The position numbers and the translations under genes are program-made. Positions 1,018 to 19,656 of a DNA stretch of 28,049 nucleotides are shown in pieces. The notes under the pieces were generated by a model. It saw nothing but the letters and a program-made list of their open reading frames with translations. It ran no database searches and was not told the origin of the DNA. Source of the DNA: a virus; the IMG/VR virus record IMGVR_UViG_3300020583_000036, positions 1 through 28,049 of that record; one strand, given 5' to 3'. Within the stretch, counting starts at the first letter, position 1. The number at the start of each line of letters is the position of its first letter.

Positions 1018-1400
1018 CGGTCGCCTCCCGCGTCACCCGTCACGGCGTCCACCCACTTCGTCAGCGTGGGACCCATCGGCGAGCTACCACCCGCATCGAG
1101 CCCGCAGCCGCCCTGTACCTGGAGCCGACCGCCCAGCCCGCACCACTGCTTCTTCACCGTGGCCATGCACGCGATGGCCTGCGCGCGCGACGCGCTGCCC
1201 GTCACGCAGTCGTCCAGGTCCGCGCCGTACGCGCCAACGTCGACCACCTGCACGGGGTTGAGCGGCGACGGGGCGGGTCCGCACGCGCACATGCCCAGCA
1301 TGAACGCGAGCACCGACAGGGTCAGCGTGACCGCGGCGACCTGCACGCGCTGCGAGGGGGAGAGCGGCGTTGCGGGGGGGCGGGGGCGGTAGGGGGTCAC
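1014..1400 (-). CDS. Membrane-anchored or lipoprotein-like Cys-rich protein (128 aa)
   Basis: GTG at 1400 overlaps the previous stop as GTGA; this start was chosen over an upstream in-frame start at 1436 because the latter would invade the preceding gene. Residues 1-19 are basic and proline-rich. Residues 20-37 form one hydrophobic segment, followed by C38-A-C40-G-P. Either Cys could be lipidated (LGMC or MCAC), though both are imperfect lipoboxes, so a simple signal anchor is also possible. The exported part holds four more cysteines (C65, C78, C87, C99), spaced as if for two disulfides. It lies between a CxxC protein and a helical protein in the lysis region. No family recognised. Confidence 0.75.
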   Translation of the reverse strand: MTPYRPRPPATPLSPSQRVQVAAVTLTLSVLAFMLGMCACGPAPSPLNPVQVVDVGAYGADLDDCVTGSASRAQAIACMATVKKQWCGLGGRLQVQGGCGLDAGGSSPMGPTLTKWVDAVTGDAGGDR

Positions 1401-1630
1401 AGTTTCACCTTCGGGTTGTAGGCAGGCGCCGAGCACACGAGGAACCGCGGCTCACCGAAGCGGATGTTCGGCGTCCCGTCCGGCCGCATCGGGATGGGCG
1501 GCGTATAGAACTGCGTGCCCTTGAGGCGCTCGTCGGAGCCGCTGATGCCGCAGCGAGCGCAGAACGGCGGGTAGCAGGTCTTCCACTCGCCATCGTGAGC
1601 GCAGGCGTCCTGACTTACTCGGTAGCTCAC
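1397..1630 (-). CDS. Small Cys-rich hypothetical protein (77 aa)
   Basis: GTG at 1630 in a GTGA overlap with the preceding gene, and the same overlap at its own end. Cysteines at 10, 19, 24, 27 and 66 include a CARC knuckle at 24-27, suggesting a small zinc-binding or disulfide-stabilised fold. A segment rich in Pro and aromatic residues follows (about residues 40-60). It contains SDERLK at 32-37, matching the active-site hexapeptide of chaperone-of-endosialidase domains, but nothing else of that domain is present, so this looks coincidental. Function unknown. Confidence 0.7.
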   Translation of the reverse strand: MSYRVSQDACAHDGEWKTCYPPFCARCGISGSDERLKGTQFYTPPIPMRPDGTPNIRFGEPRFLVCSAPAYNPKVKL

Positions 1631-1857
1631 GACAGACCCTCCAGGCTGATTGAGACCGACGTGAGCGCGGCGGGGTCGATGCCACGAAGCTCGATGACCT
1701 GCTGGAGCACGTCGAGCCATCGGTCGCCCGGCTTCCACCCGAAGTGGCCACCGCTCTGCACGGAGTTGTCGGACGTGGTCTTCCACCAGAGGTCGACCTT
1801 CCAGAAATACGAGCGGCCCTCTTCGGTCGCGGGCACGCGAGGCGTCATCGACAGCAT
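1627..1857 (-). CDS. Hypothetical protein (76 aa)
   Basis: Placed at ATG 1857, a TGATG overlap with the holin-candidate stop; GTG at 1860 is an equally coupled alternative adding one residue. The protein has a Trp-rich half (SYFWKVDLWWKTTSDNSV, then HFGWKPGDRW) followed by a helix DVLQQVIELRG and an Ile/Ser-rich end. It looks like a compact soluble alpha/beta protein without membrane segment or signal peptide. It sits directly behind the holin candidate, which says only that it is co-expressed with lysis genes. No family recognised. Confidence 0.7.
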   Translation of the reverse strand: MLSMTPRVPATEEGRSYFWKVDLWWKTTSDNSVQSGGHFGWKPGDRWLDVLQQVIELRGIDPAALTSVSISLEGLS

Positions 1858-2027
1858 CACGACTCGCCCCCCTTCCCGAGCACCGGCCCGAGCGCGCCGG
1901 CCACCACGGTCCCCAGAATGCCGACGAGGTACGACGGCACCGGGACCTTCGCCACCTCGAGCACCACGACCCCCGCAATCGTCCCGAGGATGACGAGCGC
2001 GGTCCAGGGATTCAGCTTCTGAAGCAT
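1857..2027 (-). CDS. Candidate holin, two transmembrane helices (56 aa)
   Basis: A 56-residue ORF from ATG 2027, preceded by AAGAGGT about 6 bases upstream as ribosome binding site. The sequence MLQKLNPWTALVILGTIAGV begins a first hydrophobic helix (about 9-24); a short polar turn with EVAKVPVP follows, then a second helix (about 32-49), ending in a charged Gly-rich tail GKGGES. Size, two helices separated by a short loop and a polar C-terminus match small class II holins, which form holes in the inner membrane and time lysis. Position supports this: a coiled-coil protein with a C-terminal membrane anchor lies just upstream and lipoproteins lie downstream. Many unrelated small phage membrane proteins look similar, so the holin call is an inference. 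Confidence 0.7.
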   Translation of the reverse strand: MLQKLNPWTALVILGTIAGVVVLEVAKVPVPSYLVGILGTVVAGALGPVLGKGGES

Positions 2028-5298: not shown

Positions 5299-5697
5299 TC
5301 AGAAGAGCAGGTTGCCAGCGGCCGTCGTGCCGGTCTGCCGGACGAGCGCGAGTTGGAGCGGGTAGATGGTGCCCGCAGCGAGGTTGCTCCAGGTCTGATC
5401 GGCCGTGTCCTCGACGAGGCGGCCGACGAGGTTGCCGGCCGTGCCGATGTAGACGCCGCGCGCGCAGTTCGTGAGCACCTGGTCGCCGCCGCCGACATTG
5501 ATCGCCGCCGACGAGCGCCCCCCCTCGCTCGAGACGCGAAGCTGTTGCCGCCGCGTGACCTTGACCGATGCGGTGCGCCCCTGCCCCGTCGTCGTGGAGG
5601 TCCCCTGCGCCGCCACGTCGACCGGCAGCGTGACCTTCAGGGCGCCCGCGACGTTGGGGCCCTCACCTTCGTACGTGCCCGTGATGCCTGCGCTCAT
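5299..5697 (-). CDS. Spike-base-like structural protein (132 aa)
   Basis: ATG at 5697, three bases after the large ejection-protein gene stop. The second half (GVYIGTAGNLVGRL, then SNLAAGTIYPLQLALVRQTG and TTAAGNLLF) follows the pattern of the spike base family named after RCAP_rcc01079 of the Rhodobacter gene transfer agent: a GTAG-containing hairpin, an AAGTI(Y/L)P turn and a terminal TGTTA. Members form the foot of capsid or tail spikes. The first half is more basic and may be the docking part. It opens the adhesion module, consistent with anchoring the lectin and fibre proteins. The family assignment is from memory of the motif and is moderate. Confidence 0.65.
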   Translation of the reverse strand: MSAGITGTYEGEGPNVAGALKVTLPVDVAAQGTSTTTGQGRTASVKVTRRQQLRVSSEGGRSSAAINVGGGDQVLTNCARGVYIGTAGNLVGRLVEDTADQTWSNLAAGTIYPLQLALVRQTGTTAAGNLLF

Positions 5698-5700
5698 CGC

Positions 5701-8385
5701 TCATCCCATCGCTTTCTCGGTCAACGTCTGCATCGACTTGCCGACCTGAAGGTGCGCCGGCCCACGCCCCGGAGACCCACGACGCGGCGGCGCTCCAGCC
5801 GGCTTCGGCTGCGGCGTGCTGGCCGCGTAGAGCTGCTGCACGTCGAGGGTGAAGTGCCCGTCGAGCGTCGGGTCGAGCGGGCGCTGCATGAACAGCGAGA
5901 GCTGGAGCTTCGCCTGGTAGTCGACCGGCTTCTTGCGGCCCGCGAGCTCTGCGGACACCTTGGCCTGCGCCTCGACGAGTGAATGCGGGAAGCACCGATC
6001 GGCGGTCTCCACATCCTCGGGGGTCAATCGGCCAGCTGCGAGCCTCTTCATCACGTGCGGCAAACCGCCTTCCGCAGCGTCAACATACCGCAGAAAACGG
6101 ATCCTGTCCTCGGCGGACGTGACGTCCTTGTGCAGCTGCGGCGTCGCGCTCAAACCTGGATCGTGCGCGGGGACTTTGCTGGCAAGGAAGCTGCGGACCG
6201 TCTCGACGTGCTGGTGAACCAGCGTGCCCGTCTCGGGCGCGTGCGTAGTCAGGGGCCGCGTCTGCGCCTGGAGGTGCGGCGCCACGACGGACGACGACAG
6301 AGCCGCCATCTGCGTGACCCGCTCGCGTTCCTTCTCGTAGCGGTCCTCGCTGCTCGACGTGTGGAAGACGCGCCCCAGCTTGATGCGCTTGCCGCTGACG
6401 GCCTGCGTGACGGCGCGGCCCACCTGCTCGTCGACGTCCTGGACGGCGCGGGCCATGCCGCCCCAGGTGCCGAGGCGGTCCAGCAGGATCGCCGCGTACG
6501 CGTTGCCGTGGTGCCGGAGCTCCCGGTGCGCAAGCGTCGAACCCAGCGCGACGGCCGCGCCCACGGGATGCCCCGCAGCGAGCGCGGTCATGCCCGGCCC
6601 GATGCCGGTCAGGTAGTCGCTCATCGAAAAGTTGCGGTTGGTCGCATAGCTGGCCTGCGTCGACTCCGCTGCGTCCTCGGCGAGCTTGAGGCGCTGGTAG
6701 CGCTTGTTCAGGTCGCGCAGCTCGTCGCCGGCCGCCTTGCCCTCCGCCTCGCTCGCCTTGTTCAGCGCCGACGTCTCGAGGTCGCCCCACTCGCGCGACA
6801 CGTCGCGGAGCAGCTGGACGCGCAGGTGCGGGTCGAGCGCCTTGGTCTCCTGGAAGGCGAGCTGCTGGAGGGCCCGGCGCTGCTCGACGGCCTGGGCAAG
6901 GGGCACATGCATCTGCATCGCCCGGTCGGCGTGGTCAGTCATCGAGGCGCCGACGTACTCGTCGACGAATTGCTTCCAGGGCTCCGAGCCGGCCACGAGT
7001 CCCTCGTCCGCGGCAGCGGTGCGGCCCATGGCGGTGAGCTCAGACAGGTCCGGCGCGCCTGCGAAGATGCGCAGCATGCTCGTCTTGAGCTTCTGGAGCG
7101 CGTTGACCTTGTCCTCCCCGCCGACCTTCTGCGCGAATTCGTTGATGCGCGCGTCGATGGGGTTGATCATGTCCTCGAGCTTCACGGTGGCTTCGGAGTA
7201 GCCGGCGATCTTCTCCCCGATGGCCTTGCCCGCCTTGTCGACGGCGGCCCGGATGGCGTCGAGCTTCTCCTCCGGATCCATGCGGAGGGCCCCCATCCCT
7301 CGCTCCTCGATGAGCGGGCGCATCACGTCGTCCAGCACGACGCGGCCCACCTCCTCGGTGCCCCCCGCGCGGGCGATCGCCTCTTTCGTCACGGCGTTCT
7401 TCGGGGCGAGCCACTTGAACGCCTGCTCCCCCGCCAGCTCGTCGAGCTTGGGGGAGAGCTTGCCGATGAGGGCCTGGCCGCCCTCGGCCACGAGCTTGCC
7501 GGCGCCCCCCAGGCCGAAGCCGAGGAGGCCCCCGTAGAACATCGAGTGGCCCACGCTGGTGGCAAGCTTCTCCGCGGTGAGCGGCTTGTTCTCCAGCGTC
7601 GCTTCGCTGTACGCCTGCCCGGCGCCCATCAGGCCCGCCTCGACGATGCTGCGCGCCGCGGTCTTCGCCGCGGACTGACCGGCGCGCCCGAGCACGGTGT
7701 CCGCCGTGGCGCCCAAGAGGCCACTCGCTGCGTGCTCGGCGAGGTCGCCAGCCGCGTTCACGCCGCGCGGCAGGACGCCCAGGGTGCGCACGCCCTGCGC
7801 GACCCGGCCCAGTGTGCTGGCCTCCTCGAGGCCCGCTGCGACGCGCGCGCCGCCCAGGACGCCGATCTCCTCGGGGGCAGCCGCGCCGGCAGAGAGCAGC
7901 ACCGGGGCGATGGCTCCAGCGACCTCCCCGGCCCCGGAGACCCAGGGGTGCGCTTCCTTCTCCTCGGCCAGGTGCGTCCGGACCGCCTCGGCCGCCTTGT
8001 CGCCGCCGAACAGCCGCGCGCCGCCCACCGCCACCGGGTCGAGCACCCCGAGCGAGAGGCCCCGCCCGACGCCCTCCACCCCAGCGAGCGCGGTGCCGCC
8101 GATGCCCCCGTACTTCGCGTCCAGCTCCGCCTGCCGGATGTCCTCGTGCGTGGCGAGCTGCCCGCCCGCCTGGAGGAACTGCTGTAGGTGCTCCGGCGCG
8201 ACCGTGACCGGGCGCCCCTGCTCGTCGCGGCCAGGGACGGGGCCCGCCGCGCGGATGGTGTGCGTGCCGGCGAGGAACTGCCGCCGGGCCGCCTCGAGGT
8301 CCGTGGGGACGCTGACGTTGCCCTGCGCGTCGACGAGCTTGTAGCCGACCGCTGCCGGATCGGGCGGCGCCCCCGGGCCGCTCAT
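5701..8385 (-). CDS. Large internal virion / DNA-ejection-like protein (894 aa)
   Basis: ATG at 8385 in an ATGA overlap with the preceding gene; the longer open frame upstream is only the shadow of that gene. The protein opens with a small domain (GYKLVDAQGNVSVPTDL and VAPEHLQQFLQAG, residues 14-73), followed by Gly/Ala-rich hydrophobic stretches (about 92-125, 148-185 and 280-305) and long charged helices. Another hydrophobic stretch (YLTGIGPGMTALAAGHPVG) lies in the last third. Alternating amphipathic helices and Gly/Ala membrane-active segments in a very long protein just after two similar ones match podovirus ejection proteins, which leave the capsid with the DNA and form a channel through the cell envelope. 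No transglycosylase motif is visible, so peptidoglycan cutting must lie elsewhere. Specific family not recognised. Confidence 0.7.
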   Translation of the reverse strand: MSGPGAPPDPAAVGYKLVDAQGNVSVPTDLEAARRQFLAGTHTIRAAGPVPGRDEQGRPVTVAPEHLQQFLQAGGQLATHEDIRQAELDAKYGGIGGTALAGVEGVGRGLSLGVLDPVAVGGARLFGGDKAAEAVRTHLAEEKEAHPWVSGAGEVAGAIAPVLLSAGAAAPEEIGVLGGARVAAGLEEASTLGRVAQGVRTLGVLPRGVNAAGDLAEHAASGLLGATADTVLGRAGQSAAKTAARSIVEAGLMGAGQAYSEATLENKPLTAEKLATSVGHSMFYGGLLGFGLGGAGKLVAEGGQALIGKLSPKLDELAGEQAFKWLAPKNAVTKEAIARAGGTEEVGRVVLDDVMRPLIEERGMGALRMDPEEKLDAIRAAVDKAGKAIGEKIAGYSEATVKLEDMINPIDARINEFAQKVGGEDKVNALQKLKTSMLRIFAGAPDLSELTAMGRTAAADEGLVAGSEPWKQFVDEYVGASMTDHADRAMQMHVPLAQAVEQRRALQQLAFQETKALDPHLRVQLLRDVSREWGDLETSALNKASEAEGKAAGDELRDLNKRYQRLKLAEDAAESTQASYATNRNFSMSDYLTGIGPGMTALAAGHPVGAAVALGSTLAHRELRHHGNAYAAILLDRLGTWGGMARAVQDVDEQVGRAVTQAVSGKRIKLGRVFHTSSSEDRYEKERERVTQMAALSSSVVAPHLQAQTRPLTTHAPETGTLVHQHVETVRSFLASKVPAHDPGLSATPQLHKDVTSAEDRIRFLRYVDAAEGGLPHVMKRLAAGRLTPEDVETADRCFPHSLVEAQAKVSAELAGRKKPVDYQAKLQLSLFMQRPLDPTLDGHFTLDVQQLYAASTPQPKPAGAPPRRGSPGRGPAHLQVGKSMQTLTEKAMG

Positions 8386-10085
8386 CGCGAGCTCCCCACG
8401 GGCGTGGCGAACGAGCTGGGGGGCGGTCCCGACGTGGCCGGACGCTGCGGGCCGATGCCGAGGTCCTTCTGCGCCAGGTGCACCTTCGCGGCGACGACGG
8501 CGGGCGTGTCGCCCTTCTTGATCAGGTACGGCTTGCCGAGCGCCTCTTGCGCCTCGGGTGTGCGCGCGCCGGCCGCCTTGTGGAAGTGGCCCTTGATGGC
8601 GCTGTTCCAGGCCTCCTGCTCGCGCGCGACGCCCCCCGTCTCGGTGGCCCCCATGTACGCCCGCGGGTCCGGGATGCCCTGCACGCCGGTCGCGTTGGTG
8701 CTCTGGGGGATGGTGAGGCCCGACGTATCGGGGCCCTCGCTGGCCTTGCCGACGCCGAAGGCCGGGGCCGTGCCGCCGCCGGGGCCGTGCTGCGCGACGA
8801 ACGCATCGAAGCTGGGGAAGGGCTGCGCGCCCTGGGGCAGCTTCCCCTCGAGGGCCGCCTTGTCGTACTCCTCGCGCTGGCGCTGGTACTCCTTGCGTAG
8901 ATCCGGGCCGCTCCCGCCGACGCCCAGCGGGGTCCAGTGCTCGGCCTGCTGGTGCCACTGCGCCTTGAGCATGTCCGTCTCGGCCTTGAACATGTCGGCC
9001 TGCGCCTTCATGACCGGCGACTTCGCGCGCTCCGCCGCCGCGAGCGCCTGGTAGCCCATCTGCTCTGCGCGGTAGGCCCGGAAGCCCGCTTCGGCGGCGC
9101 GCTCGTCACCGAAGCGCTCGCGCATCTTGGCGAGCAGCTCCCCCTTCTGCTGCGCGGCCTTGTGCTTGTTCGCCAGCGCGTCGGACTGCTCGCGGTAGTC
9201 GTCGTCGACGCCCTTTTCGATGATCTGCTTCGCGAGGTTGGGCGCCTCGGGGTGACGCTGGATCGCGTTGCCCAGCGCATTCATCCCCATGAACACGGCG
9301 CCCATGAGCCGCGCCCCGCCCGTGCGTCGGTCGTAGATGGGCTTGCCCTCGGAGGCTTCCTTCTGGAGCCGCTCGTAGTCGGCCATCTGCGCGTCGAGCG
9401 CATGCTTGCGCGTCCGTTCCGCCGCCTTCGCCTCCACCTCGTCCAGCGCGGCATAGTTCGCGCGGCGCTGGAGGGCATCGTGCTGCGCTTCGCTCTGCTC
9501 CTGCTGCGCGTTGCTGAGTGCCTGCCCCGCAGCCTCGCGCTCCCCGAACGCCTGCTCGAACTGCCCGCGCGATTCGGGGCTGATGAGGGACGTGGCGTGC
9601 GCCTGGATGACGCCGCCGCTCCCCCAGCTCGAGCGCGCTGCGCCAGCCGCCCCGGGCTGCGACGCCCTGATGTCCTGCTCGGGAGGGCCAGCCGGCCCGC
9701 CGCCGCCGGGGGGAGGCCCCGCGAACGCGTGCCCCCCACGCACGTTCTGCTGGAGCGCCATGTTCTGCACCGGGTCGAGCCCCGGCGTGGGCTGAAGGAC
9801 GCTCCCCGCGACCGCGTTGGCCGTCTCCCGCTGCTGCGGCGACATGGCGTTGTACGCGCGTACCAGGCCCGCCCCGGGCGGCGCCCCCGGCGCGAGCGCG
9901 ATGTTGGCCAGCGCCCCGACGCTGGGGCCACCGGGCTGCAGAGGGTTGGGAGGAGGCTGGCCCGTGCCGGCCAGGACCGCGGCGTTCTGCGGATCCGGCG
10001 TCTGCGGCGGGGGGACCCCGGGCGTGCGCGGAAGGATGCCCCGCGCGCGCAGCAGTTCCAGCGTGTCTTCGCCCAGGCCGCCCAT
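8382..10085 (-). CDS. Internal virion / ejection-like protein with long coiled coil (567 aa)
   Basis: ATG at 10085 overlaps the previous stop as TGATG. Residues 1-150 are Pro/Gly/Ala-rich and look disordered. The middle (about 170-400) is a long charged, Ala/Gln/Glu-rich helical region (for example QQEQSEAQHDALQRRANYAA) with one short hydrophobic patch (RLMGAVFMGMNALGNAI). The C-terminal third is again low complexity, ending near a helix (KKGDTPAVVAAKVHLAQKDL). No enzyme motif found. It sits between two other large candidate ejection proteins, so it is most likely the second of a three-protein ejection set. It could alternatively be a tail-associated structural protein. Confidence 0.7.
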   Translation of the reverse strand: MGGLGEDTLELLRARGILPRTPGVPPPQTPDPQNAAVLAGTGQPPPNPLQPGGPSVGALANIALAPGAPPGAGLVRAYNAMSPQQRETANAVAGSVLQPTPGLDPVQNMALQQNVRGGHAFAGPPPGGGGPAGPPEQDIRASQPGAAGAARSSWGSGGVIQAHATSLISPESRGQFEQAFGEREAAGQALSNAQQEQSEAQHDALQRRANYAALDEVEAKAAERTRKHALDAQMADYERLQKEASEGKPIYDRRTGGARLMGAVFMGMNALGNAIQRHPEAPNLAKQIIEKGVDDDYREQSDALANKHKAAQQKGELLAKMRERFGDERAAEAGFRAYRAEQMGYQALAAAERAKSPVMKAQADMFKAETDMLKAQWHQQAEHWTPLGVGGSGPDLRKEYQRQREEYDKAALEGKLPQGAQPFPSFDAFVAQHGPGGGTAPAFGVGKASEGPDTSGLTIPQSTNATGVQGIPDPRAYMGATETGGVAREQEAWNSAIKGHFHKAAGARTPEAQEALGKPYLIKKGDTPAVVAAKVHLAQKDLGIGPQRPATSGPPPSSFATPVGSSR

Positions 10086-11677
10086 CAGCGCACCCCTGCC
10101 CTCTGCCGCCCCTCGAGGCGCAAGAGGCGCTCATGCAGGCGCCCAAGCGCCGCGGCGGATGCGCCCGCGAGCGAGGGGACATCCACGCGCTTCACGCCAT
10201 CGGGGCCCGGCGAGACGAGCTTGCGTCCCTCGGGCGTGCGCTCCAGGTCCTGCGCCATGACGCCCAGGTAGCGGTCCCCCGCGCCGTCGGGGTTGGGCTC
10301 GTAGGAGGGACTCTGGTAGCTGAAGGTCTTGGGCTCCAGGCTCCCCAGGAAGCGGTCCACGGGGGGCTCGCCGCCGTCGGTGCGCCGCTCGCTCTTGACG
10401 CGCTCGTCGCTCGTCAGCGCGTAGGGTCCCTCCTCGGCGGGAGGCTGCGCGGGGACGTACCCCGTTGGCGCCGCCACGAGCGTCTGTCCGCCCGACTTCA
10501 GGACGGGAGGGTGCTCGGCGGGTGGCGGACCAGAGATGGGGCCCCGGTAGGCTGCGTGCTCAGTCACGGGGATCGCCGCGTCACCCGTCGGCTTGGGCGT
10601 CGCTGCCGGCACCATCCCGAACGGCCCCAGCACACGCGCAGGGGCGCCGGGGGAGGCACCGAGGTAGGGCGGCATGCTGCCCGTCCGCGCGAGCACCTGA
10701 GGCGTCGTCGCCGCCTGCACCCCCGCCTCGACACCCTGCGAGTAGCTGGCGTCCGCCACGCGTTCCTTCACGCGCTCGTCGGAGGTGAGGCCCTTGCCTG
10801 CCGCGCCACCCAGCGCGCCGCCCGCCGCAGCGCCCACGGGCCCGCCGACCATCGCGCCGCCCACGGTGCCCGCGGCGCTGAGCAGGCCGCCCACCATCGC
10901 ACCCGCCGCGCCCGAGTTGGACGCGTTCTGCTGCTGCTGCACTCCGGCGTACCCGAGGCCCGTCTGCGCGCTGGCGTTCTGCACGCCGAGGCCCTGCCCC
11001 TCGTAGCCCTGCTGGAGCCCCTCGCCCGCCTGCACGGCATTCTGCCCGCTCTGCTCGTACCCGAGCTGCGCGTTGGTCCCCGCCTGGAGCGCCCCGAGCT
11101 GCTGCCCCTGGAAGCCCTGCGCCGCGTTGTTCGCGAGCCCGCCCATCCCGAGCGACCCCTGCATGTACGCCTGCTGCGCCGCGGCCATCTCCTGCGCCCG
11201 CAGCGCCGCCGCCTGGTCCACGCCCGACTGCTGCATCTGGGCGCCCGCGTCCATCGCCTGCTTGTTCGCGTTCGCGAGCCCGAAGCCGCCGCGCGTCGCC
11301 CCGGCCATCGCCATCTGCTGCTTGGCGGCCTGGTCGAGCCCCTGCTGCATCTGGATCGCCGCGGCGCTCGGGGTCTTCCCCGCAGCCGCGTCTGCGAGCT
11401 GCCCGAGCGCGAGATTGCCCTGGTTCTGCGCGCCCTGGAGCGCGCCGTACTGCTGCTGACCCTGCTGGCCGTACTGCGCGCCGAGATTCTGGTACTGCCC
11501 CCACTCCTGGGCGCCCTGCTGGCCCATCGTGTTGGCGTAGCCCTGGCCCTGCGCAGCGGCGGCACCGCCGAGGCCCTTCTGCTGGTTCTGCTGCGTCGTG
11601 GCAGCCGAGTTGCCCTGACCCCATGCCCCGCCCGGCGCCTGCGTCTGACCCGTGATGCTGTTCCACGCGGCGCTCAT
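10085..11677 (-). CDS. Q/G/A-rich virion protein with glycine zipper and C-terminal S74-type intramolecular chaperone domain (530 aa)
   Basis: ATG at 11677, ATGA overlap. Residues 1-250 are Gln/Gly/Ala-rich helical low complexity. Residues 257-295 form a glycine-zipper segment (GAAGAMVGGLLSAAGTVGG and on), typical of membrane-inserting ejection proteins. SDERVK at 299-304 follows directly. A proline-rich linker (about 335-418) leads to a second SDERVK at 423-428, then FLGSLEPKTFSYQ, RYLGVMAQDLERTPEG and a terminal helix with VPSLAGASAAALGRLHERLL. The last block matches the chaperone-of-endosialidase (peptidase S74) domain, which folds trimers and cuts itself off before the catalytic Ser; Ser and Lys five residues apart fit its dyad. 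Placement in the ejection gene group rather than on a fibre is notable. Confidence 0.75.
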   Translation of the reverse strand: MSAAWNSITGQTQAPGGAWGQGNSAATTQQNQQKGLGGAAAAQGQGYANTMGQQGAQEWGQYQNLGAQYGQQGQQQYGALQGAQNQGNLALGQLADAAAGKTPSAAAIQMQQGLDQAAKQQMAMAGATRGGFGLANANKQAMDAGAQMQQSGVDQAAALRAQEMAAAQQAYMQGSLGMGGLANNAAQGFQGQQLGALQAGTNAQLGYEQSGQNAVQAGEGLQQGYEGQGLGVQNASAQTGLGYAGVQQQQNASNSGAAGAMVGGLLSAAGTVGGAMVGGPVGAAAGGALGGAAGKGLTSDERVKERVADASYSQGVEAGVQAATTPQVLARTGSMPPYLGASPGAPARVLGPFGMVPAATPKPTGDAAIPVTEHAAYRGPISGPPPAEHPPVLKSGGQTLVAAPTGYVPAQPPAEEGPYALTSDERVKSERRTDGGEPPVDRFLGSLEPKTFSYQSPSYEPNPDGAGDRYLGVMAQDLERTPEGRKLVSPGPDGVKRVDVPSLAGASAAALGRLHERLLRLEGRQRAGVR

Positions 11678-12066
11678 GCGGCCTCCACTGCCTTGACGAT
11701 CTGCCTGAGGGGCGGCCCCGCGAGCCGCCAGCCGTGGCGTCGCCCGAGCTCCACGATGCTGGGGAGGGACGACTGGCCCACGAGGTACGCCCCGCCCCGC
11801 GCCGCCGCGAACGCGTCCACCTCGCGGCAGAGGGCGTCCAGCGCGGCCATCTTCTCCGCCTCCTCCGCGTCGGGGCTCGAGATGACGTTCTCCACGAAGA
11901 GCACCGCCGAGTCCGTGCGGTAGACCCACAGCGCCGCGACGCCCGGCACGATGAAGCCCACCTCGGGCAGCCAGTGCGGCGGGAAGGGCTGCATCTCCCA
12001 CCCGCGGCACCACGCGTCGATGGTCTCGCGGTGCTCCGACTCGCTGTAGCGCACGACGGGGCTCAT
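11674..12066 (-). CDS. GNAT-fold acetyltransferase-like protein (130 aa)
   Basis: ATG at 12066, ATGA overlaps on both sides. The pattern of an N-terminal strand, a helix with HRETIDAWCRGW, then PPHWLPEVGFIV, strands GVAALWVYRTDSAVLFVENV and a helix EKMAALDALCREVDAFAAAR followed by YLVGQSSLPSIVELGRRHGW resembles small phage GNAT-type proteins. The usual acetyl-CoA pyrophosphate loop (Q/R-x-x-G-x-G/A) is not visible at the start of the second helix (SSPDAEEAEKMAAL), so the fold may be kept without normal catalysis. Embedded between the nozzle and the first ejection protein, it could modify a virion or host protein or play a structural role. Fold call moderate, activity doubtful. Confidence 0.65.
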   Translation of the reverse strand: MSPVVRYSESEHRETIDAWCRGWEMQPFPPHWLPEVGFIVPGVAALWVYRTDSAVLFVENVISSPDAEEAEKMAALDALCREVDAFAAARGGAYLVGQSSLPSIVELGRRHGWRLAGPPLRQIVKAVEAA

Positions 12067-15000
12067 CCGCGCGCCCCGCCCGGGATGTTCGGCCACCGCT
12101 TCGTGCCGTCCACGCCAAGCTCGATGCTCAGATCCGCCCAGCTGGGGCCGGCCCCCGTCGTCGCCGCCGGCCCGCCCGTGGGGGGCGCGTCGGTGAGGGT
12201 GATCTGGAGCGACTTGGCCAACTGATTGCCCACCAGCATCTCCACGTCCACCTGAGGATACCGCGAGAAACCCGCAATGTCCTGCGCCGTGAAGCTCGGG
12301 GACTTCCCGTTCAGAGTCTCCGAGTAGAAGCCCGTACCCGCCCCGTCGAAAGTGAGCGTCATGGTGAAGTTGTACGGGTCGACAGAGTCGCCCACGAGCT
12401 GTACCCGCCAGAAGCGCGTAGCCTGCGAGATGGCCGCTTTGATGAGGGCCGTTTGCACGGTCATCTGCACCCACTGACCCGCGTCGTAGTTCGCCTGCGC
12501 GCCCGTGCCGACGTTCTCCCGGTAGACGCGTCCACCCGCGGTCGCCCAGTGGTAGGTGGGCGCTGGGGCGCCGCTCTGCGAGGCGTTGGCGATCCACGCG
12601 GCGCGCGAGCCCGGGACGCCGGCCGTGTCGACGTCGTAGACCTGGTCCGTCGACCACACCCCCATGATGTAGTCCCACACGAGCCGCACGCCGGCCGTAG
12701 GGGCCGAGTCGCTGTTCAGGCACTCGATGTAGACGCGCCCCGCGCTCGGGTGGACCGTCATCGACGAGACGACGGGGAACGCTGCCAGCGAGTCCTCGAC
12801 GGCGGCGCCGACGTACTGCGTCTGAAGGTCGCGCGTCAGCATGTAGAAACCGCCGGCGCCATGTGGACCACCCACAGGCGCCCGGAAGAGCGCGCCGAAG
12901 GGCCCGGTGCAGATGCCGCGTTGGTCGATGGGCCCGACGTCGGAGGGGATCTGCTGCGGCGGGGACCAGTCGCTCTGCTGCCCGTTGTCGAGCGGTCCCT
13001 GCCCGCTCATGAACTCCAGGCCATAGCCGCTCGTCCGCTGCACACCGATGACCAGCTTGTCGTCCAGCACCGCGAGCGCGCGCACCGCGCCGGATGCTGA
13101 GATGTTCAGCGCCTCGTTGAAGCCCGGGGCCAGCCCGGGCGTCAGCTGCTCGCTGAACCACATCGCGCTGGGGTCATCGCAGCCGGACACGCAGTAGCGG
13201 CTGTCCCAGGTCGTACGGCACCGACCGCCGGGGGGGCACAGCTTGTCGAGGAAGCCGCCCAGCGTGTAGTCCGTCTCGTGCGTGCCATCCTGCAACGTCG
13301 CATCGCTGATGGTGTCCGTGAACGTGATGGTCCCCTGCCCGTCCTGGCAGAGCAGCGAATCCGGCGGGGGCGACGACGGCACGCGGTAGAAGACCTGCCC
13401 GCCACCCGCCGTGCGGTACGGGATGCAGTAGACGCCCTGAGGCGCCGTCTGCTGCTTGGCCCCGCCGCCCCCGATCGCCGCCGCTCCGTACCGACGCTGC
13501 GTCAGGCCGAGGCTGGGAAGGGTGAGCGTGACGCTGCCCGAGGTGCCGGCGCCCAGCGCGCTCATGTCGGCGGTCTCGACGGGGCTCGTGCCGCTCTGAT
13601 GGCGGTTGCCGAGCGCGTCGTACCATTCCCAGATGAGCTTGTACTGGTAGACGTCGGTCGGTGCCCCCGTCGCCATCGAGCCGCCTGTCGCGCTGATGGC
13701 GATGCCGCTCGGCGTGCCACCCAGCGGCGCCAGCTCGGGGTAGTACGCGAAGCCCATCTCGAAGGCGTTCTGCCCGTCATGCGCGTACGTCTGCCCCGCC
13801 GTCAGCAGCATGTCGCTCACGCCGCCGAGGTCCGCGCTCGCGTATCGGAGCGTCGAGGCGAAGTCGAACACCTGGCAGTAGATCGCCTGATGCTTGGGCT
13901 GCGTGCTCGTCGTCACCGGCACGGACCACACGCTGCCCGCGTCGTTGCAGATGTGCGGGATGGTCTCCGCGCTGTTCTGCGGGCTGTAGCGCGACAGGCG
14001 CGGCGAGACAATGGCCACGCAGCGCGCCGGGAACGGGTTGGCCGTCACGAGGTCCCCGAACCAGTCGTGCGCGACGAGGTACTGCGTCCCCTGCACCTGG
14101 CTGGGGACGGTCATCATCATGTAGCAGCCGCCGTTGATGATGACGGGCCGGCTCGTGGGCACGACCGCCGCCTCGAAGCGCTCGACACCCTGGAGCGCCG
14201 TGGCGCCAGCGGCGATGTGGAACTGCCGCGCGCGCGTCCAGGTCGCCGCCATCTGCCCAATCTGCGGAGGCGCGGCCGCGGGCACGTTGGGCGACCAGAA
14301 GACCGTGGCGCTACTCGAGTCACCAGCGGGCGTGACGATGCCGTGCGGGCCGATGGCGACCGGTGAGCCGGGCCACGAGTAGACTGTCACCGGCGTCGAG
14401 GGCGTTCCGGTCGGATCCGTGAAGCCCCACGCGCGCAGGGCCGTCCCAGCGCCGCTCGCGATGGCCGTGTAGGCCATCCAGTGCGTGCCGCCCGATGTGG
14501 CCACCAGATCCACCGAGATGAACTGCGTGAACGTCCCCTCGGTGAACGCGAAGGACTGCTGGACGAAGGACAGGTTGAAGATGCGCACGACGGCCGCATT
14601 GCCGCCGCTCGAGAACTCGTAGGCGATGGCGAACCGCGTCGCGTCGCCGATGACGGGGCTCGCGTCGTAGATGCCAAGGCCAACGAAGTGCACGCCGTCG
14701 CTCGCGAGCGCGGTGGCCGCGCCCCACCCGAGCCACGGCTGCGTCATGTCGAGCGATCGGCCGTAGATGATGCCGTTGTAGACGTAGGTCAGGACCGCCG
14801 TCGTCCCACAGAGCGACAGGCGCGCCCCGAACACCGCGAAGCTCGTCAGCGTCGGGTCGACCGGACGCGCAGAGACGACGTTGGCGCCCGTCACCAGGTC
14901 GAGCACCGCGTAGCTGGGGCTGGCCAGGCCGCTGCCGAAGATGTCCGCGGTGTAGAGGACGAGCCGGTAGCCGCTAGACGCGCACGCGTCGACGTCGGTG

Positions 15001-15359
15001 TTGCCCTGCGCCAGCGAGGACACCGGCACGCGGTCGCGCACCTGCGCCTCGGGGAGCCGCCCGGAGAAGAGCCAGCGCGCTGCCGCGTCGGAGTAGACGT
15101 AGAGGCCCGTGCCGTCGCTCATCCAGGCGGCGCCGCGGTAGCTGCCACCAGCGACGCACGCGCCCAGCGTCGGCCCCGCCCCGCCCTGCGCGGTCTTCGT
15201 CACCGCCGTGTGGCCGGGGCGCTTGATGATGGCGTTGTTCTTCTGCTTGCGGCAGTTGACGAGCTGCGCGTGGCCGCCCAGCTCCAGAAAGCGTGGGTCC
15301 GCCTTCTGGTTCACGCCCGCCGCGAGCGGGACGTCAATCACCTTGCGCTCGAGCGGCAT
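12063..15359 (-). CDS. Tail nozzle / stabilisation protein, tail tube B-like (1098 aa)
   Basis: ATG at 15359, three bases after the previous stop. The N-terminus (VIDVPLAAGVNQKADPRFLE, then GHAQLVNCRKQKNNAIIKRPG) matches the opening of podovirus nozzle/stabilisation proteins, which announce a list of virion parameters with an 'all-positions, known-value, KRPG' pattern (T7 gp12-like, P22 gp10-like). The long body is beta-rich with Trp/Tyr repeats and turns such as VRLVWDYIMGVWSTDQVYD, typical of the beta-propeller part. The C-terminus has further beta strands. It would form the tip of the short tail below the adaptor. At 1098 residues it is longer than T7 gp12 (about 800), with the extra length in the middle. 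No catalytic motif seen. Confidence 0.75.
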   Translation of the reverse strand: MPLERKVIDVPLAAGVNQKADPRFLELGGHAQLVNCRKQKNNAIIKRPGHTAVTKTAQGGAGPTLGACVAGGSYRGAAWMSDGTGLYVYSDAAARWLFSGRLPEAQVRDRVPVSSLAQGNTDVDACASSGYRLVLYTADIFGSGLASPSYAVLDLVTGANVVSARPVDPTLTSFAVFGARLSLCGTTAVLTYVYNGIIYGRSLDMTQPWLGWGAATALASDGVHFVGLGIYDASPVIGDATRFAIAYEFSSGGNAAVVRIFNLSFVQQSFAFTEGTFTQFISVDLVATSGGTHWMAYTAIASGAGTALRAWGFTDPTGTPSTPVTVYSWPGSPVAIGPHGIVTPAGDSSSATVFWSPNVPAAAPPQIGQMAATWTRARQFHIAAGATALQGVERFEAAVVPTSRPVIINGGCYMMMTVPSQVQGTQYLVAHDWFGDLVTANPFPARCVAIVSPRLSRYSPQNSAETIPHICNDAGSVWSVPVTTSTQPKHQAIYCQVFDFASTLRYASADLGGVSDMLLTAGQTYAHDGQNAFEMGFAYYPELAPLGGTPSGIAISATGGSMATGAPTDVYQYKLIWEWYDALGNRHQSGTSPVETADMSALGAGTSGSVTLTLPSLGLTQRRYGAAAIGGGGAKQQTAPQGVYCIPYRTAGGGQVFYRVPSSPPPDSLLCQDGQGTITFTDTISDATLQDGTHETDYTLGGFLDKLCPPGGRCRTTWDSRYCVSGCDDPSAMWFSEQLTPGLAPGFNEALNISASGAVRALAVLDDKLVIGVQRTSGYGLEFMSGQGPLDNGQQSDWSPPQQIPSDVGPIDQRGICTGPFGALFRAPVGGPHGAGGFYMLTRDLQTQYVGAAVEDSLAAFPVVSSMTVHPSAGRVYIECLNSDSAPTAGVRLVWDYIMGVWSTDQVYDVDTAGVPGSRAAWIANASQSGAPAPTYHWATAGGRVYRENVGTGAQANYDAGQWVQMTVQTALIKAAISQATRFWRVQLVGDSVDPYNFTMTLTFDGAGTGFYSETLNGKSPSFTAQDIAGFSRYPQVDVEMLVGNQLAKSLQITLTDAPPTGGPAATTGAGPSWADLSIELGVDGTKRWPNIPGGARG

Positions 15360-17912: not shown

Positions 17913-18410
17913 TCACGGCTTCTGGAACTGGACGGTGGAGTCCTCGAACTGCACGAAGAAGTGCAGGCGGAACGCGTTGGGCGTGCCGACGTCCGTCGGG
18001 CTGCCCGAGCTGTTGATGGTGAGCAGCTGGATGCTCGGCGCGATGCCCGCCGCTGCGCCCAGGACGCCCGTGTTGGTCCACGGCTCGACGGGCTGCGACC
18101 AGAGGGCCGAGCCCGACGACGGCGCCGCGAGGTCGCAGGAGATGACGTTGATCTCCCGGTACGAGTCGTCGAACGTGAGGGTGTAGAGGCCGCCGCTGGG
18201 GTGGGCGACGCCAGGCGTCGACGTAATGCCGGACCGCGCGCTGGTCTGAAGGGTCATGACCCCGGCGATCGGCGCGTAGCCGAAGCCGAGGCCCTTCACC
18301 TTGGACGCGACGATGGTCCCGGTGCTGGACGTGAGGGGCACGAACGAGCCGGCGACGTCGATGAGTCGCTTGCCGATCGTGTAGCCCTGATCGAAGTTGC
18401 GATTGCTCAT
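17913..18410 (-). CDS. Small head protein, possible decoration protein (165 aa)
   Basis: ATG at 18410, seven bases after the major capsid stop. Beta-rich and nearly uncharged in its middle (GTIVASKVKGLGFGYAPIAG, LYTLTFDDSYREINVISCDL), with a C-terminal strand pair RLHFFVQFEDSTVQFQ. In many tailed phages a small beta-rich gene directly beside the capsid gene encodes a decoration or cement protein on the outer capsid. Here it follows rather than precedes the capsid gene. Function inferred from position and composition only. Confidence 0.75.
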   Translation of the reverse strand: MSNRNFDQGYTIGKRLIDVAGSFVPLTSSTGTIVASKVKGLGFGYAPIAGVMTLQTSARSGITSTPGVAHPSGGLYTLTFDDSYREINVISCDLAAPSSGSALWSQPVEPWTNTGVLGAAAGIAPSIQLLTINSSGSPTDVGTPNAFRLHFFVQFEDSTVQFQKP

Positions 18411-18417
18411 CGCAGCC

Positions 18418-19656
18418 TCACCACGTGCCGATCAGGTTGTACCCGGGCGCCTCGCAGCCGTACTGGAAGTACCCGCCCATGCGCCACTGGTAGCCGTCGT
18501 TGTTCGCCTCGCGCAGCATCTTCAGACCGTCGTCGTCGAGGATGCGGGGAACGCCCTTGGCGCTCTTGAGGACCCACGTCTCCATGTCGAGCAGCGCGAA
18601 CTTGCCGCGCGGCATGTTGACGTCGCTGAAGACCTTGATGGTTCCGTCCGGCCCCTCGATATTCAGTGCGCGGTAGCCGATGTCCCCGTCGGTCGAGTTG
18701 ACCGGCTCGTAGATGGCCTTGGAGCCGAGCGACTTGATGATGTCCGCGCGATCGAGGTTGTTGATGAAGGCCGTGAGGTCTTCCGCGCCCTCGCGCCCGG
18801 CGAGTTCCGCCGCGTCGATGAGGGTCTCTTCCTTGTTCCCGCCTCCGCCCGTGTAGCGGAGGCCGGCGAGGCGCACGACGTCCACGCTGCGGTCGACGCC
18901 GAAGTGGTTGTCGCCCGCCGTGGGGGCCGTCGTGGGGATCCAGCGCTGCACGCCGGCCGGGCCGAGCGAGTAGTCGCCGTTGCGGAAGATGAAGTCGCTG
19001 TTGCTGACGTTCGTCAGGGTCGTGATGACCTGCGTGAACGTCACGGTCCCCGCGATGCGGTCGAGGGACAGGACCGTCAGCGGGCCGTTGCCGCGCACCT
19101 GCGCGAGCGCGCCGCCGTTGTTGTAGCCGTCGTCCGCGCTGAAGTCGCATTTCATGCTGACTTCGAAGCCGGTGATGTCCGCGGCCTGGAGGAGCGTCGC
19201 GACCGCGCCCGCGGTCGAGTACGACCCGTTGCCCTGCGCGCGCTGCCCGCCGCCGTTGCGCCAGCTGTGGATCTGGATCGAGCGGTTGAGGTTCCGCATC
19301 GAACCTTCCATCTCGCCGCGCAGCGTGTTGTAGATGGTGTTCTCGTCACCATCGCCGGCCGCGAGGGCCTCACCGCTGATGCCGGAGACCTGGTAGTCCT
19401 TGGCGCGCGTCAGCATGAAGCCGACGTCGGAGCTGGATGTGACGTTGTTCTGGGCGATGTTCAGCTGGAAGCTGCCGCCCTGGGGTGCCCCGTACCGCAG
19501 CGAGATGCGCGCATTGTTCGCGCCGAACTTCTCGTCCTTCCGGATCTGACCGACGAAGGCGGCCTTGCGGTAGAAGAGCTGGTGGAAGACCTTCTGGTCG
19601 TACCGGGTCTTCAGGATGTTGGTGAGCGCTGCTACGGTGGCGTCGCCTGCGGGCAT
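18418..19656 (-). CDS. Major capsid protein (412 aa)
   Basis: ATG at 19656 with GGAG 8 bases upstream. The N-terminus (ALTNILKTRYDQKVFHQLFY) and basic/aromatic segments such as RKAAFVGQIRKDEKFGANNA followed by RISLRYGAPQGGSFQ look like the arm and E-loop of an HK97-fold capsid. The C-terminal half has a helix-strand succession (LIDAAELAGREGAEDLTAFI) resembling the spine and axial domain, ending MGGYFQYGCEAPGYNLIGTW. It directly follows the scaffold gene, and its size suits a major capsid protein. It carries no protease domain, and none is apparent in its neighbours. A stable hairpin lies just before its ribosome binding site. Confidence 0.85.
   Translation of the reverse strand: MPAGDATVAALTNILKTRYDQKVFHQLFYRKAAFVGQIRKDEKFGANNARISLRYGAPQGGSFQLNIAQNNVTSSSDVGFMLTRAKDYQVSGISGEALAAGDGDENTIYNTLRGEMEGSMRNLNRSIQIHSWRNGGGQRAQGNGSYSTAGAVATLLQAADITGFEVSMKCDFSADDGYNNGGALAQVRGNGPLTVLSLDRIAGTVTFTQVITTLTNVSNSDFIFRNGDYSLGPAGVQRWIPTTAPTAGDNHFGVDRSVDVVRLAGLRYTGGGGNKEETLIDAAELAGREGAEDLTAFINNLDRADIIKSLGSKAIYEPVNSTDGDIGYRALNIEGPDGTIKVFSDVNMPRGKFALLDMETWVLKSAKGVPRILDDDGLKMLREANNDGYQWRMGGYFQYGCEAPGYNLIGTW

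Follow-up and report, generated by a model that had tools for sequence, protein, structure and literature searches.

The 530-residue protein studied here carries an S74-type intramolecular chaperone at its C-terminus and two copies of the motif LTSDERVK, and it is reasonably likely to be a self-trimming ejection protein resembling gp14 of T7, in which Ser299 and Ser423 mark the candidate cut sites. Its gene comes from a 28-kb virus record; the window, i.e., the whole stretch of DNA analysed, is the entire record of 28,049 nt, which bears no annotation. The protein has four parts: a Q/A/G-rich N-terminus, a glycine zipper, a linker, and the C-terminal S74 domain (residues 421-530). Coordinates are presented in Table 1. 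The proposed mechanism is that a gp14-like internal virion protein, which would insert into the host outer membrane, bears a C-terminal chaperone that would trimerise and cut the chain before the Ser of SDxxxK. The chaperone would be discarded, leaving as the working form the Q-rich stretch with its glycine zipper, whose C-terminal end would lie at the zipper or shortly beyond it. Given that the first motif lies where the related viruses' protein naturally ends, the 530-residue protein probably trims itself to this form. Most likely there is at least one cut, in front of Ser423; a cut in front of Ser299 may occur in addition or in its place.

Table 1. Features of the candidate ejection protein and of neighbouring genes in the window.
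Feature	Position	Strand	Basis
Upstream gene, 1098 aa, nozzle / gp12 position	12063..15359	-	identity and position in relatives
Candidate ejection protein gene, 530 aa	10085..11677	-	ORF and translation, conserved gene order in relatives; T7 gp14 position
Conserved core, residues 88-176 (PSAA...LRAQE)	11150..11416	-	identity and invariant columns against relatives
Glycine zipper / small-residue hydrophobic segment, residues 256-296	10790..10912	-	composition; same segment type in relatives
Motif copy 1, LTSDERVK 297-304, then ERV; candidate cut before Ser299	10766..10789	-	translation, position in relatives
Linker, residues 305-420, 116 aa	10418..10765	-	composition, pLDDT
Motif copy 2, LTSDERVK 421-428, adjoining the S74 body; candidate cut before Ser423	10394..10417	-	Pfam, alignment
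S74 / intramolecular chaperone body, residues 437-528	10094..10369	-	Pfam, alignment, PDB profile matches, AlphaFold, Foldseek
Next gene, 567 aa, gp15 position	8382..10085	-	homologues directly next in L005, L009, L004, L013, L015, L012, L002
Separate fibre gene, further along from the 8382 gene	5299-5697		phrog_12296 match

A capsid-protein scan of viral contigs gave 16 related loci, and a scan of genome contigs gave two only. The second capsid scan returned no additional complete copies of the 530-residue protein, and no viral contigs matched this protein, the nozzle or the terminase as single queries. Named phages searched with the 530-residue protein, its core, the nozzle, the portal and five relatives yielded nothing at E <= 0.01, and at E up to 10 matched only in fibre S74 domains. 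Gene order is kept in the seven loci that reach far enough (L002, L004, L005, L009, L012, L013 and L015): terminase and portal (where covered), scaffold, capsid, the genes at 17913, 16905, 15821 and 15363, nozzle, the 530-residue protein, and the gene at 8382, whose start overlaps the stop of the 530-residue gene by one base. The nozzle-position protein is found just upstream in all eight relatives compared, with 33-45% identity over about 1100 residues. A small gene between the nozzle and the 530-residue protein (11674-12066, minus strand) has no Pfam match and matches nothing in the sister loci. The capsid protein (18418-19656, minus strand) is 79-85% identical to most of loci L002-L015 and 69% identical in L014, an unusual contrast with the far lower identity of other proteins encoded in that gene block (terminase 40-59%, portal 40-49%, nozzle 33-45%).

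T7 gp14 is an ejection protein that forms a pore in the outer membrane. It is ejected first and is located in that membrane (PMC8954989). The 530-residue protein resembles it in following the nozzle, in preceding two large proteins and the fibre, and in having a small-residue hydrophobic segment, but differs in that it matches no ejection family in PHROG or Pfam. Hence, the protein is not assigned to the gp14 family; what it shares with gp14 is the position and, judging by gene position and composition, probably the ejection role, which the preliminary description had proposed and the conserved gene order supports. Within the protein, the core, used as the query that gave 34 family loci, is 46-53% identical to six relatives, with 22 invariant columns. 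In one family member (L036, 3746-5971) the core is followed by an M23 peptidase domain (E 2e-14), as one would expect of an ejection protein that penetrates the cell wall.

S74 domains are found on fibres, spikes, Bdellovibrio fibres and MyRF, usually at the C-terminus, and are best known on fibres. This association, together with PHROG matches of relatives L042 and L143 that mostly read "tail fiber", would favour a fibre or tail appendage. Such an identity is nevertheless improbable, since the gene sits between the nozzle and the gp15-position gene, the window has its own fibre gene (Table 1), the composition is Q/A/G-rich with a zipper, and the family includes the M23-bearing member. In ten S74-positive phage records (nine relatives and the window), the one S74 match of each lies on an ejection-type protein and never on a fibre; because of this, fibre labels derived from S74 can mislead, and "tail fiber" labels from S74 or PHROG matches can be wrong.

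The S74-type ending claimed from the sequence was confirmed. A search against Pfam Peptidase_S74 (PF13884) matched residues 423-479 at 18.2 and 19.8 bits, below the curated cut-off of 22, which the matches of the sister proteins exceed. The doubt this leaves is removed by a profile of the relatives, which matches the solved S74 chains 6f45, 3gud and 8jov at E 7e-6 to 3e-4. Residues S423, D424, K428, G472, A475 and Q476 are invariant in 38 aligned sequences (the window protein and 37 relatives), and the body carries GVMAQ (472-476) and a C-terminal helix (about 500-528). In an AlphaFold monomer model of residues 285-530, only the S74 part folds confidently (pLDDT about 85-96); the Pro/Ala/Gly-rich linker is low-confidence throughout, with pLDDT mostly 41-62, and is predicted to be largely disordered. 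When the C-terminus was folded from a single sequence, the model was poor. The best PDB matches to the AlphaFold model are the S74 structures 7dc3 (MyRF), 3gud and 3gw6, its Foldseek neighbours being the S74 domains of MyRF, GA-1 and K1F; the match to 7dc3 has probability 1.00 with an E-value of only 7e-3.

In the MYRF papers, the conserved residues singled out as key are S, D, K and G, with Ser and Lys forming the dyad (PMC3742443, PMC8326128), and cutting at this Ser is established in MyRF (Ser587, Lys592), K1F endosialidase and a Bdellovibrio fibre (PMC8326128, PMC10769870). It is unlikely that the S74 domain serves here only as an uncut trimerising or folding cap, with the 53 kDa protein whole in the virion. 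No triple beta-helix precedes the domain, and in endosialidase a residue of that helix joins in cutting, which would suit such a cap; MyRF, however, cuts without help from its stalk (PMC8326128), and the Ser-Lys dyad and the Asp are invariant in all of the aligned sequences. Self-trimming, the reading preferred here, also faces the objection that known chaperones act on beta-helical stalks, whereas the upstream part is here Q-rich, zipper-like and disordered. Further, T7 gp14-type assemblies are not known to be trimers, which also counts against this reading.

The S74 domains of K1F endosialidase, the GA-1 neck appendage, the T5 fibre and MyRF share with that of the window protein the fold, the SDxxxK dyad, G..AQ and a C-terminal helix. 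Compared with these proteins, the S74 domain of the window is on a Q-rich glycine-zipper protein at an ejection-gene position, not on a fibre or spike, and an extra SDxxxK, without an S74 body of its own, occurs 124 residues upstream. T7 gp14 is not known to have the C-terminal linker or the chaperone. There is also a likeness to MyRF, a membrane-bound transcription factor in which S74 is likewise on a non-fibre protein near a membrane segment and releases an N-terminal part; yet the membrane segment follows the domain in MyRF and precedes the cut site in the window protein, which is a phage virion protein. A literature search, with most subscription journals outside its reach, found no paper describing S74 on an ejection protein, and databases carry unnamed phage proteins labelled as containing the domain. 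If true, a self-removing chaperone placed where the membrane-active segment ends would be a direct answer to how ejection proteins stay soluble and inactive until packaging.

Where S74 attaches in the relatives bears on the role of the first motif. In L005, L013, L004 and L009, S74 directly follows the zipper; a long extension comes after the body, of 160-288 residues, with a shared stretch WTLREEPDFxLAxN...HGAGPI. L002 is without S74 and ends at the zipper. L015 and L012, whose proteins are identical, resemble the window: the zipper meets a first SDxxxK, and beyond a linker comes SDERAK with S74. Across the family, the first motif directly abuts a zipper-like segment in 12 of the 14 members scored as S74-bearing, and of the approximately 18 members without S74, nine stop no more than five residues away from such a segment (in one case at the edge of a contig); L019 (cut by the contig end) and L044 were left out of these counts, as they were scored S74-less though carrying an S74 start or a whole S74. 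The placement is not universal, some members having tails of other kinds, and this is a point against self-trimming. In one such tail (L049, 3413-5167) the zipper leads straight into a Hint-like segment that begins with Cys, at 19.1 bits against a cut-off of 32.1, and a PDB search gave no support for it; the segment is only suggestive of a self-cleaving module, unrelated to S74, in this place.

LTSDERVK occurs, as the preliminary description reported and translation confirms, at residues 297-304 (bases 10789-10766) and 421-428 (10417-10394). Copy 1 is at the end of the zipper, whose glycine-rich character is supported by composition (35% Gly and 28% Ala over residues 251-296), and copy 2 is at the start of the S74 domain. 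The self-processing reading given earlier is supported in part, as regards the S74 domain, the zipper and the ejection role, with the refinement that there is a single S74 body, none belonging to copy 1. Since the position of copy 1 is that of the S74 start in L005, L013, L004 and L009, sequence comparison indicates that copy 1 and the site at which S74 enters in the sister phages are homologous. The most plausible view is that copy 1 was the ancestral entry site, that an inserted linker now holds it apart from the chaperone, and that copy 2 serves as its backup: the disordered linker would have come between copy 1 and the chaperone, leaving a second motif beside the chaperone.

The codons of the two copies differ, as claimed, at Leu, Thr, Ser (TCC and AGC) and Val. 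These differences rule out a recent DNA duplication and bear out an old divergence. Four of the eight codons are identical, against about 5.2 expected under an independent codon draw; hence, the synonymous sites are saturated. Despite this, all eight residues are identical, five of them beyond S, D and K. These identical residues over saturated codons suggest selection on copy 1, although the copies were found by their motif. Copy 1 may instead be an inert relic, a possibility that deserves weight short of even: an older zipper-attached S74 would have lost its body after a second S74 gain or an insertion, and only copy 2 would be cut, giving a 41 kDa product that keeps the linker. In L132, the sequence that follows upstream copies 1 and 2 still resembles the N-terminal part of S74 significantly (0 of 200 shuffles as good), which fits such a history; traces are weak in the window (12 of 200, not significant), L012 (10 of 200) and L097 (10 of 200). 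The eight-residue identity argues against it, tempered by E, R and V being also common at these positions in the family, as do the canonical +8 V that copy 1 keeps and copy 2 lost and the enrichment of SDxxxK over control motifs described below.

Of the 80 loci recovered by an S74 scan, almost all have a Q/A-rich or zipper-type upstream part. Among 87 S74 proteins, an extra SDxxxK in the 250 residues upstream of S74 was observed 10 times against 1.5 expected by shuffling (P 4e-6), and control motifs (altered spacings, most permutations) show no or weak enrichment, the strongest being SK...D (6 against 1.4). These values indicate that the repetition is more than chance. The multi-motif cases are the window, L012/L015, L029, L033, L085, L097, L102 and L132, the last with four copies, the maximum per protein; two SDxxxK-like sites were also seen by eye in L044. 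Upstream copies recur in several lineages, and on the S74 body tree, which is weakly resolved, the multi-motif label of the starred branches requires at least three changes. At +8, I or V is present in 67 of 70 single-motif S74 proteins, compared with two of seven body-adjacent copies in multi-motif proteins, or three of seven counting L (Fisher P 4e-4 counting I/V/L). The lack of this residue in copy 2 of the window is a further point against self-trimming. Upstream copies keep I or V at +8 in 7 of 13 cases (P 3e-5), a conservation that is partly ascertainment, given that these copies were found only through their kept SDxxxK. Similarity at variable residues is mildly higher between copies within one protein than between proteins (P 0.02).

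These repeats raise, tentatively, the possibility that one chaperone trimer cuts at both motifs, yielding three pieces: the ejection protein up to the end of its zipper (29 kDa), the linker (12 kDa) and the chaperone (12 kDa). Consistent with this, relatives without S74 end at the zipper, L132 has up to four motifs, and in seven relatives (L090, L104, L107, L131, L144, L147 and L033) the motif is 45-141 residues before the S74 body, without a second motif beside it, so a distant motif seems tolerated. The difficulty is that, once Ser423 has been cut, the chaperone and the upstream chain may part, and copy 1 would need to be cut first or in trans. More broadly, it is a rather doubtful extrapolation that podophage ejection proteins include a widespread class self-cleaving at the zipper end via S74, and possibly via a Hint-like module (L049), some with two to four SDxxxK sites trimmed by a single chaperone. 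The related motif SDERLK also occurs in a short ORF of the window (1397-1978, minus strand; GISGSDERLKGTQF) without an S74 body, probably by chance.
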